A stretch of 64,000 nucleotides of DNA from assembly GCA_937969495.1 (NCBI GenBank), contig CALBVY010000045.1:1-64000 (forward strand), read 5' to 3'. This DNA comes from an uncultured Verrucomicrobiales bacterium (lineage in GTDB: Bacteria; Verrucomicrobiota; Verrucomicrobiia; Verrucomicrobiales; Akkermansiaceae). Shown piece by piece: positions 1 through 4,111 of this stretch (position 1 is the stretch's first letter; the number at the start of each line of letters is the position of its first letter). Under the pieces are notes generated by a model. The model did no database searches, had not been told where the DNA came from, and saw only the letters and a list, made by a program, of their open reading frames with translations. The translations under genes were made by a program, and so were the position numbers.

Positions 1-956
1 TCATTGACGGCAGCAATGAGCAGCTTCGCTTCCGTGGAGGTGATGGTACCGCGTTTTTGGTAATCGCGCACAATGGAGAGTTTTTCGTTTAAGTAAGCCT
101 CACCGTATTTGTGGAGCCAGCTCACCGCAATTCCTTCTCCCACGCCGTATTTGATACACTCTTTAACGCATTGGTTTTCTAGGGCAACTCACAGCTCGTT
201 CTCAGGGATGCCTGGTATGCGCATTTGCACGTTTTTCGGGTTCTCGGTTACGCAGAATTGAATCGCGGTGACCTTGCGACCCATACGCTCTAGCTCGAAT
301 TCGAGGTGGATGTCTGAGTGCTCATTGATTTCCTGCACAGCAGGCTTGATGATCTTGCGGTTCAGCTCGCGGAATGACTCATAGTATTTCATGCCAGCCA
401 CGCCCATGAGTTTTCTAAAAGTCTCGATATCCCAGAAGGGGGTGAGTCAGGGAAAGGTTTTTTGTTTTTTGTAGCGCACGCAGTTCTCATAGAGATTGAG
501 CGAGTATTTGCTGCTGAAGTTTCTCTCTGCCACGAGGCTGATCTGAGCGAATATCTCGGGGTCGTAGAGTTTTTCGCAGAGTTCGTCATCGAATCCATAC
601 TCGAAGGAATCCGTTCACCACTTGATCTTTGGTGATGATAGATAGTTGTGGACTTGCCAGAGAGACTCTCTTCCCTGCTCATCGTGCTCGATCCATTCGA
701 TCTGAGTAACAGCGAGTTGTTTGAGGGCGTTCTTGATCGATTTGCGGTCTCACGAGTCGTAATCGATAAGCTCACAGAGTGCCGAATAGCGCATCTTGTG
801 ACGACGTTTTTTGAGGAGATTTGGATAAGCGTTGAGGAGGAGCGCATTAAACATTTTCCTCTCCAAGAAACTCAAGTTCGCCTCTACATGAACGGTAGCG
901 ATATGCTTCTTCACCATGTGATTCTGCTGAAGCATAGCTGGCACGGATGACTTCAT
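1..956 (-). CDS. Rep_3-family (iteron plasmid) replication initiator, truncated by the window edge; contains four in-frame TGA codons (recoded gene or pseudogene)
   Basis: Read 956->1 in one frame: MKSSVPAMLQQNHMVKKHIATVHVEANLSFLERKMFNALLLNAYPNLLKKRRHKMRYSALCELIDYDS[TGA]DRKSIKNALKQLAVTQIEWIEHDEQGRESLWQVHNYLSSPKIKW[TGA]TDSFEYGFDDELCEKLYDPEIFAQISLVAERNFSSKYSLNLYENCVRYKKQKTFP[TGA]LTPFWDIETFRKLMGVAGMKYYESFRELNRKIIKPAVQEINEHSDIHLEFELERMGRKVTAIQFCVTENPKNVQMRIPGIPENEL[TGA]VALENQCVKECIKYGVGEGIAVSWLHKYGEAYL... TGAs are at 750-752, 615-617, 447-449 and 189-191, all in the same frame. Motifs such as SSKYSLNLYENC, FRKLMGV and NRKIIKPAVQEIN are typical of Rep_3 initiators. Confidence 0.8.
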
Positions 957-997
957 AACTCTGTGGTTACTACCAATAATGAAGCCATTATATTTTT

Positions 998-1072
998 TAT
1001 TGTGCCCATGTCAAAGATATCGATAGGCACGAATCCAGCGACCTATATTTTTCTATTGTGCCTGTTTACAGT
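998..1072. promoter_or_regulatory. Inverted iteron copies next to the rep start (possible autoregulatory operator)
   Basis: TATTGTGCCC at 998-1007 and CTATTGTGCCTGTTTACAGT at 1053-1072 are reverse complements of the iteron core (ACTGTAAACAGGCACAATAG). Confidence 0.5.
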
Positions 1073-1154
1073 ATCTCGAAATGGGGCTTGATGGTGTTAG
1101 CGTGTTTGCATCCGCATGTTTATGGGAAAACAAGAGAGGTATCTCAGCTCATTT

Positions 1155-1293
1155 ACTGAAGACAGGCACAATACCTTTTTCTTCTAACTGTAGAAGGACA
1201 CAATAGAACTGCTAACAGGCACAATACTCACCGTAGAGGGGCACAATACCTACTGTAAAGGGACACGATAGTCACTGAAAACGGGCACAATAC
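1155..1293. repeat. Iteron array (direct repeats, ~22-bp period), likely plasmid-type replication origin
   Basis: Six copies resembling ACTGTARANRGGCACAATAC start at 1155, 1187, 1208, 1230, 1252 and 1274; the last four are ~22 bp apart. They lie upstream of the Rep_3-like gene. Confidence 0.8.
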
Positions 1294-1500
1294 ATCGATA
1301 ATTTCAGCAAGTAGCTCAGTAAACTAACAGCGGAAAGTATCTAAACCTCTTAAAGAATATAAACAACAGAGAGTGTTGTTTGATATTTGGGGAAAGGGGG
1401 AAGGGGGCATGAAGACACACTTCCCTATCAAATAAGAAGATATGAAAATACTCGACCGTGTCAAAGGTCGCTCGCCATGAGTCATGATGCTGAGTGTATT

Positions 1501-1721: not shown

Positions 1722-2255
1722 TTAGTTCGTGTTTTGTTCAAGGCGTTTACGGCACGCCAATTTAATTCTCTTTAGTTTATCATGTGCAGAAGACTTCGGG
1801 ATTCCTGTGATCTCAGATACCTCCTCCATCGTGTAGCCATAGCGCTCATGCAGCCAAAAAACGCGTTTGCTGTCCTCGTCATACTCATCGGGGTGGAAGA
1901 TCAGCCAGAACCGTTGATACGCCTCTAGCTCATCGTCATAGCTCTCTGCCTCTTGTCTTGTAGGCATCATGATTACTGGTGGCTCTGTAGGCTCTTCTGT
2001 GAAGTCGATATCGACTCGGCATTTAATCTTTCGATAGTAATCGATGAAGACTTGCTTCGCCTTATGGTAGAGTAAATTCTTCTGATCGATTTTATCGGTA
2101 TCAAAGTGCTTGTGAACGGTGCTCCATAAATTCTGGCTGAGGTCTTCAGCGATATGCCAATCATTGCAGAGGCTATAGAGATAATGCAGCATCGCACCGC
2201 TGTGTTCTTGCACGGCCTGGGTGAATAATTGCTCGCGGGAGGATGATTGATTCAT
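1722..2255 (-). CDS. RNA polymerase sigma-70 family (ECF-like) sigma factor
   Basis: Region 2-like (HYLYSLCNDWHIAEDLSQNLWSTVHKHF) and region 4-like HTH (ERYGYTMEEVSEITGIPKSSAHDKLKRIKLACRKRL). Confidence 0.75.
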   Translation of the reverse strand: MNQSSSREQLFTQAVQEHSGAMLHYLYSLCNDWHIAEDLSQNLWSTVHKHFDTDKIDQKNLLYHKAKQVFIDYYRKIKCRVDIDFTEEPTEPPVIMMPTRQEAESYDDELEAYQRFWLIFHPDEYDEDSKRVFWLHERYGYTMEEVSEITGIPKSSAHDKLKRIKLACRKRLEQNTN

Positions 2256-2416: not shown

Positions 2417-2728
2417 TTGCTGAAAATGGATATGACTACGAAAGAAAAAACCGACAAGTTACCGCCACTTGAAAAAATCACCACGCTCGTGAATGACTTA
2501 GATCAACTGCGTTTTGTGGTTCAAAATCAGGTGAAGCAGAATCAGTCACTTGATGAGCTTATTGATTACTTATATCTGGATGAATTGAGCGACGGTTTTG
2601 GGTTATCAGCTGCACTTATGAGAAAGCGATTATTAGCAGCAGGGGCTAAGATCTTCAAACTTGGGAAGCGATACGCGATTCGCAAAGTGGGGTTTCTGGA
2701 GGTCATCGAAAGGCTTGAGCAAGATTAA
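2417..2728 (+). CDS. Hypothetical small DNA-binding-like protein (excisionase/HTH-like)
   Basis: 103-aa ORF with a basic C-terminal segment (AALMRKRLLAAGAKIFKLGKRYAIRKVGFLEVIERL) convergent with the integrase. Confidence 0.45.
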   Translation: MLKMDMTTKEKTDKLPPLEKITTLVNDLDQLRFVVQNQVKQNQSLDELIDYLYLDELSDGFGLSAALMRKRLLAAGAKIFKLGKRYAIRKVGFLEVIERLEQD

Positions 2729-3861
2729 CTGGGAGGGAGGATTGCCCAAAATTCAGTAGCTTGTTTGGCTGGTCTCGCATTGCGATAATGCTGTTCGAAT
2801 GTTTGCAGCATCGTGTGTCCCATATTTTCGAGAACTTTTTGTTTCGAGTTTTCGCCAAGAGATCGCATGTGAGCCTCCAGATTAGAGCCATAGGTGTGAC
2901 GTGTGATGTCACGAGCCCAAGAGATAGTTTCAGGCACTACTTTAGCTTTTCGGTTTTTATGATTAGGTAGCTGTATTTTCCCAGACCTATCCTTGAATGG
3001 TAATAGCCATGCCATGAGCGTATCGCTGAGATCGACGAAGCGTTTGGTGTCAGTTTTGTTTCCAAACCCGACGCGAATCCATTTATCTTGAAAATTAATA
3101 TCGTCCCATTTGAGCCTACCCAACTCGGACTCAGGTCGAAGACCGGCAAATATGGCAATGGCAAACCAGGGAACTAATTCGAAATCTTTCTGCCATACAT
3201 TTTCAAGCAAGAGCTTTACCTCGGCATTGGAGAAAACTGAGACGGGCTTCTTTTTGATTTTCGCTGTGGGAATCGATTTGATCGGGTTCACGGAAAAGGC
3301 GTCAACCGCCTTAGGCATCGTATAGAGTGCTACGAGGAAAGATCGTAGATGATTGTAGGATCTGGCTGAATAAGCTCCTTTCTCTCGCCAAGCTGGTAGC
3401 CACTCCTGCCAGTAGTGAGAATCAAGCTTGTTGATAATCTCCTCGCCGATTGGTAAGAGGTGTTTTTTGACCCATTTATAGGTGTCTAGGTAGCCATCTG
3501 ACCATTCTCCACCTCGTGTTGCCTTATATTGCTCTAAGAGGTCTATGAGCGTTATAGAGCTGCTTCTGCGCTCAAGCTCCCTGATCCAGTCAGCGCATGC
3601 ATCAGCGAGCCCCTGATATCCGTAGAGCTGAAATGCGTCATCATAGTATTGAGCTTGATTGAGTAGGGCTTCGTCAAATTTGACAGGGTTTTTTGAATCA
3701 AGACTCTGTGATAGATTATTGCGATAATCCTGAGCCGCGGCTTTGGTCTGAAAGAGTTTCCGCTGCCGTTTTCCGTTGAGTGACAATTTTGCACTGACAT
3801 TGACGACCCATTTACGGGTCTGTTTATCGCGTGTAATCTGCAATTCTCCTTTCTTAGGCAT
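2725..3861 (-). CDS. Tyrosine recombinase / phage-type integrase
   Basis: C-terminal catalytic pattern: AGLRPESELGRLKWDDIN ... ITRHTYGSNL ... MGHTMLQTFEQHYRN; located next to a tRNA gene. Confidence 0.9.
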   Translation of the reverse strand: MPKKGELQITRDKQTRKWVVNVSAKLSLNGKRQRKLFQTKAAAQDYRNNLSQSLDSKNPVKFDEALLNQAQYYDDAFQLYGYQGLADACADWIRELERRSSSITLIDLLEQYKATRGGEWSDGYLDTYKWVKKHLLPIGEEIINKLDSHYWQEWLPAWREKGAYSARSYNHLRSFLVALYTMPKAVDAFSVNPIKSIPTAKIKKKPVSVFSNAEVKLLLENVWQKDFELVPWFAIAIFAGLRPESELGRLKWDDINFQDKWIRVGFGNKTDTKRFVDLSDTLMAWLLPFKDRSGKIQLPNHKNRKAKVVPETISWARDITRHTYGSNLEAHMRSLGENSKQKVLENMGHTMLQTFEQHYRNARPAKQATEFWAILPPS

Positions 3862-4036: not shown

Positions 4037-4111
4037 TGGCTCCTGCACTTGGGATCGAACCAAGGACCTAGTGATTAACAGTCACCCGCTCTACCGCTGA
4101 GCTATGCAGGA
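4037..4111 (-). tRNA. tRNA-Asn(GTT), CCA encoded
   Basis: Minus strand TCCTGCATAGCTCAGCGGTAGAGCGGGTGACTGTTAATCACTAGGTCCTTGGTTCGATCCCAAGTGCAGGAGCCA; cloverleaf with GTT anticodon and 7-bp acceptor stem TCCTGCA/TGCAGGA. Confidence 0.95.

Follow-up and report, generated by a model that had tools for sequence, protein, structure and literature searches.

Does a plasmid-type replication initiator gene that is interrupted by four in-frame TGA codons, and by nothing else, encode a functional protein, and if so, how is UGA read? The window, which is the whole 64,000-nucleotide stretch of Verrucomicrobiales DNA analysed here, opens with such a gene (rep) on its minus strand (Table 1). Translation of the frame from 956 to 1 gave 318 residues in which the only stops under translation table 11 are the four TGA codons, exactly as the sequence-only reading had described them. 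The frame matched both Rep_3 domains in Pfam, Rep3_N at 1.7e-17 and Rep3_C at 4.5e-20 (PF01051, PF21205; WH1 and WH2 domains), and the predicted fold (pLDDT 74) resembles RepE54 of plasmid F (E ~1e-6 to 1e-8). The family assignment made earlier from the letters was thereby borne out: by its domains, the gene is a Rep_3 (RepE/RepB-type) plasmid initiator with a predicted function in replication. Since window base 1 is also base 1 of the contig (G000:C45, 72,384 bases), rep cannot be followed further to the left.

Table 1. Positions of the features discussed in the text (window positions unless a contig is given).
Feature	Position	Strand	Remarks
Rep_3-family replication initiator (rep)	1..956	minus	ATG at 954-956; 3' part lost at contig end
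TGA, residue 69	750..752	minus	UGA or Gly for most clade members, Asn for two
TGA, residue 114	615..617	minus	Gly in 28/28 standard-code homologs
TGA, residue 170	447..449	minus	Gly in 28/28 standard-code homologs and in every sense-coded clade member
TGA, residue 256	189..191	minus	Ala in most clade members, Asp in outside homologs; not informative by itself
Predicted sigma-70 promoter of rep	987..1014	minus	TTGACA-16-TATAAT, 12/12 matches
Predicted origin with iterons	1054..1295		22-nt direct repeats at 1155, 1208, 1230, 1274; core GGCACAATA
Conserved non-coding stretch	1334..1393		upstream of iterons; 82% identity to the G066 element
Small acidic ORF, 70 aa	1501..1713	minus	no sense TGA; stop TAA
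ECF-type sigma factor	1722..2255	minus	Sigma70_r2, Sigma70_r4_2; no sense TGA; stop TAA
94-aa ORF	2444..2728	plus	no family match; possibly DNA-binding; stop TAA
Tyrosine integrase	2725..3861	minus	no sense TGA; stop TAA
tRNA-Asn(GTT), presumed attachment site	4037..4111	minus	
Structured RNA copies	L012:2921-3110, L013:11216-11405, L014:16215-16403, L015:17446-17636, L074:7395-7567	minus	
Structured RNA copies	L016:1-183, L322:2616-2805	plus	
IMG/VR contigs with UCA tRNA-like genes	L250, L251, L267, L282, L297		not linked to the rep element

UGA-rich rep genes form one clade

Searches of related genomes and of the order found relatives in five further genomes, of which G072 and G073 contain two copies apiece. 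Together with the window's gene, this makes eight UGA-rich reps in six genomes of the host family (Rubritalea relatives, Verrucomicrobiales), and the named records of some of these genomes are uncultured Rubritalea sp. and Verrucomicrobiales MAGs. The eight frames align over their full length and hold 4-10 in-frame TGA codons each, 59 in total, with no TAA, no TAG and no frameshift; TAA and TAG are common in the remaining two frames of the same genes. Among the homologs outside the clade, 51 loci (from Rhodobacteraceae, Poribacteria, gammaproteobacteria and other groups) have no TGA in the matched region; the one Patescibacteria homolog has none. The pattern is beyond chance, because 59 TGA stand against no TAA or TAG in eight homologs and against no TGA in 51 outside loci, and its recurrence in six genomes with differing UGA positions rules out an error in a single assembly.

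In the tree, the UGA-rich reps are a single clade (support 100/100), and they are confined to one Verrucomicrobiota family. The clade also takes in a nearly UGA-free contig of doubtful binning (L074:1-10312, from an 'Alteromonadaceae' MAG). The only TGA in the rep of this contig falls at a non-Gly column, yet a DUF2958 paralogue there has four; a host change or misbinning may account for this contig.

UGA in rep is almost certainly read as glycine

Alignment columns were scored in the manner of Codetta, with either the 28 standard-code homologs or the sense codons of the other clade members as references. Against the standard-code homologs, UGA scored +6.4 bits for Gly, followed by Ala (-12.0), Trp (-65.5) and Cys (-66.7), so that Gly leads by ~18 bits over Ala, ~72 over Trp and ~73 over Cys. 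Against the clade's own sense codons, the scores were +25.9 bits for Gly, -6.5 for Ala and -71.8 for Trp. As controls, GGA, GGC, CGA, TGG and GAA returned their own residues; TGC, TCA and AAA were uninformative or drifted to a similar residue, which marks the limits of the method. Residues 114, 170 and 185 of the window's protein are Gly in all 28 outside homologs, and each is UGA in some clade member. Between related reps, UGA exchanges with GGA, GGC, GGG and GGT; in each of the eight genes it makes up 23-47% of all Gly codons, and UGG is kept for Trp. The idea that the window's TGA codons fall at usual glycine sites held for residues 69, 114 and 170, which are Gly or Gly/Asn columns, and failed for residue 256. 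With column scores that favour Gly and with UGA swapping with GGN, the earlier proposal that UGA means glycine is upheld, and we regard the recoding of rep as close to certain.

The column scores rule out Trp, Cys/Sec and Arg. UGA as tryptophan (through a near-cognate tRNA-Trp), an alternative that the sequence-only reading had kept, or as selenocysteine, is hardly credible here: UGA does mean Trp in certain bacteria, one Verrucomicrobiota lineage among them (PMC13092985), and three of the genomes have tRNA-Sec genes (G000, G072 and G073), but the UGA codons do not sit at Cys/Sec columns, and Trp and Cys both fall more than 70 bits under Gly.

The frame, its promoter and its origin are maintained

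With UGA taken as Gly, dN/dS of rep was 0.14 for G066/G091 and 0.10 for the two G073 copies (G073a/b). In the G072b/G372 pair dS was saturated (pN 0.12), and the G072a/b pair, at 0.45, looks recombinant. The two low ratios show purifying selection over the full-length frame. The TTTGACA box and an iteron-like half-site are kept in 8/8 aligned elements, and the iterons, which adjoin rep and include an inverted copy at 1054-1073, are conserved across elements, showing the predicted origin and the host-type promoter to be intact.

These data bear directly on whether rep has become a pseudogene through TGA mutations alone, for instance by the CGA-to-TGA decay considered in the sequence-only reading. 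Neither relaxed selection nor mixed disruptions are seen: dN/dS is 0.10-0.14, every one of the 59 stops in the eight genes is TGA, the codons lie in Gly columns where they swap with GGN, and the origins are conserved. Although no decoder was found (see below) and the G059 element has lost its rep, the selection values and the TGA-only pattern rule out decay of any kind for practical purposes, and we consider it very improbable.

UGA has two meanings within one integrative element

The elements share the order tRNA gene, tyrosine integrase, (HTH-like ORF), ECF sigma factor, small ORF, origin and rep, and the start of the window is best explained, from its sequence, as the left end of a plasmid-like integrative element. 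Related elements are located at tRNA-Tyr, tRNA-Lys and tRNA-Val genes, and in them the small acidic ORF stays beside the sigma factor. The G066 and G059 elements share one tRNA-Tyr site, next to a gene that we take to be queG. The G066 element also carries cargo resembling a defence module (L013:14249-19315), with a DNA methylase, PRTase-CE, an ORC-CDC6-like ATPase and a CARF-type protein.

As had been noted from the letters, the four other ORFs of the window's element all terminate with TAA and TGA is a normal stop elsewhere: it ends 9 of the 48 long non-overlapping ORFs of the window, and thus is an ordinary stop in the host genome. Such UGA stops imply a UGA-reading release factor in the host. 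In the rep genes of clade members, the base after a sense UGA is U in 3 of 59 cases, compared with 18 of 111 after GGN; this scarcity of U fits loosely with competition with the release factor or with avoidance of strong release contexts.

Sense UGA is absent from the integrase, the sigma factor and the small ORF of the elements. The DUF2958 gene downstream of rep has three TGA in G066, three in G059 and one in G091, and none in either G073 element or in 13 other copies in the family. A further gene, 'GQY', carries a pair of TGA codons whose positions coincide in G066 and G091 and are presumably glycine positions in wider homologs; its protein has no homolog in PLSDB. In three of the same elements the stop codon of DUF2637 is TGA. 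Since DUF2637 stops at UGA and rep, DUF2958 and GQY read through it, UGA has two meanings inside one element. These sequences are best explained if UGA = Gly applies only to rep and to a small number of genes near it, with UGA remaining a stop in the host and in the rest of the element; the earlier expectation of gene-specific rather than genome-wide recoding is thus supported, and in related elements the recoding extends to DUF2958 and GQY.

The G059 element is a decaying copy. Its locus (L322:1-5000) has lost rep and retains the structured RNA described below, together with a DUF2958 gene with several TGA, some of them at non-Gly columns.

A recoding partner outside the phylum is unlikely

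UGA = Gly is known only from Absconditabacteria/Gracilibacteria (PMC8629427, PMC10746230), and the UGA-free genes of the element are those for integration and regulation. Both facts would suit an element that shuttles between two hosts, with rep and its UGA-containing neighbours translated only in a code-25 partner and with Verrucomicrobia as silent carriers, for which the integrase and the sigma factor are standard-coded. Yet the UGA-rich reps all come from a single Verrucomicrobiota family, the one Patescibacteria homolog has no TGA, the rep genes have a GC content of 0.42-0.51, and a perfect sigma-70 promoter precedes rep. A pattern-based scan covering genomes of 84,980 species turned up no relative with code 25, and queries of IMG/VR with Rep, its profile, GQY and the core of the structured RNA returned no close relative. 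Acquisition from a code-25 lineage, one of the origins first suggested for the gene, is disfavoured by the single clade, the GC content and the lack of a code-25 relative, and we consider shuttling quite unlikely.

Search for the decoder

The sequence-only reading had proposed looking for a tRNA with a UCA anticodon in the element and the host. All RF00005 matches above the cut-off in G000, G066, G072 and G073 were assigned anticodons and read singly, and they included no UCA tRNA besides tRNA-Sec (in G000, G072 and G073). A canonical UCA-tRNA pattern, which demands a canonical T-loop, gave only chance-like matches in 260 family genomes, in numbers similar to the control. The element region G066:C14:18000-62969 yielded no tRNA except the tRNA-Tyr of the attachment site, and so no suppressor tRNA was seen there; the window's own element is truncated. 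ARAGORN in relaxed and intron modes returned only noise, and a suppressor-tRNA pattern scan returned tRNA-Glu(UUC) and chance matches. Since the genomes are drafts of 92-98% completeness, a decoder gene carried by a plasmid or phage outside the bins would escape these searches.

Phage-type tRNA arrays with unusual T-loops are present in G000:C74 (L178:857-2154), G073:C36 (L181:10919-13767) and G066:C15 (L180:9160-9900); read by hand, none contained UCA. The G073 array adjoins a GOLLD RNA (153 bits). In IMG/VR, the UCA-tRNA pattern matched some phage tRNA-like genes with a UCA (or UCA-containing) anticodon, whose amino-acid identity is uncertain. A MsrA-like gene of G073 (L015:810-1589, minus strand) has an in-frame TGA in its GxFWG motif and is likely a selenoprotein gene.

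A structured RNA accompanies rep

On the opposite strand, downstream of rep or of its former place, lies a structured RNA of ~190 nt, which is invisible in the window because the contig ends inside rep. In the elements that reach past rep, this block is conserved far better than the coding genes. It folds into an unbranched rod of ~41 pairs in seven helices; double compensatory changes occur at 17 of 41 pairs, 93.7% of cells pair, and none of 500 shuffles matched this covariation. There is no match in Rfam. The model found one copy in each of the seven elements whose contig extends past rep and nothing above noise elsewhere among the 260 family genomes. The RNA is a candidate for a role in recoding, copy control or transfer. 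A TTTCAGT hairpin on the opposite strand, tried as a UCA tRNA, was rejected since it is not conserved.

Its restriction to the elements and its covariation raise the question of whether the element encodes its own decoder, as a non-canonical RNA such as this one or as a tRNA too divergent for the finders. UGA would then be read as Gly in the replication module only and without a UCA glycine tRNA, which, if true, would amount to a novel kind of stop codon decoding, one that controls plasmid replication. We consider this unlikely: the RNA is a rod that lacks both a tRNA fold and a conserved UCA loop, and its co-occurrence with rep is expected simply from membership of the element.

Proposed mechanism

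We favour, with a probability of about 0.6, a reading in which UGA is translated as glycine in the Verrucomicrobial host itself by a putative conditional, glycine-inserting suppressor; the mechanism is modelled on recoded phages (PMC10746230, PMC9523058). Host RNA polymerase would make the rep mRNA, but full-length Rep would need a decoder that inserts glycine at UGA. In this way the in-frame stops would lock replication at the level of translation until such a decoder enters the cell or is turned on. Most likely it would be a Gly-tRNA(UCA) supplied in trans, by a helper plasmid, a phage or an unassembled part; an unusual RNA encoded by the element itself is less likely. We infer conditionality solely because UGA-stop and UGA-Gly genes coexist. 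The failure to find a Gly-tRNA(UCA) and the two G073 copies of DUF2958 without TGA count against this mechanism. An initiator whose synthesis depends on stop-codon suppression would represent a novel means of gating plasmid replication.

Comparison with known systems

The element shares with genetic code 25 (Absconditabacteria SR1, Gracilibacteria BD1-5) the use of UGA for glycine at sense positions alongside GGN, in element genes only. Code 25 itself is genome-wide and served by a tRNA-Gly(UCA), whereas here host ORFs and the element's DUF2637 end in TGA and no such tRNA was found in genomes that are 92-98% complete. Stop-recoded phages (codes 15 and 4) likewise have in-frame stops in a subset of the genes of a mobile element within a standard-code host, a recoding thought to time expression, and rep, DUF2958 and GQY, set beside the integrase, sigma factor and small ORF, show the same division. 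Those phages use UAG = Gln or UGA = Trp with suppressor tRNAs, in contrast to glycine, a plasmid initiator and no suppressor seen here. The WH1/WH2 domains, iterons and sigma-70 promoter are shared with Rep_3 (RepE/RepB) iteron plasmids, of which the nearest are RepB plasmids of Rhodobacteraceae (~40% identity to the Sulfitobacter and Roseivivax initiators). The outside Rep_3 homologs examined have no in-frame TGA, unlike the window's element, which is integrated and UGA-recoded.

Candidatus Pinguicoccus supinus, of the same phylum, is a reduced endosymbiont. Its UGA is also reassigned, in this case genome-wide and to tryptophan (PMC13092985). In the literature consulted, Absconditabacteria and Gracilibacteria are the only bacteria for which UGA = Gly has been reported as a genome code (PMC8629427, PMC13092985). 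A large screen for altered codes left out mobile genetic element models (PMC8629427), and recoding at the level of single genes could therefore be widespread yet unseen. Here UGA = Gly recurs in a different phylum, restricted to some genes of a mobile element and retained over deep divergence, in hosts that keep UGA as a stop.
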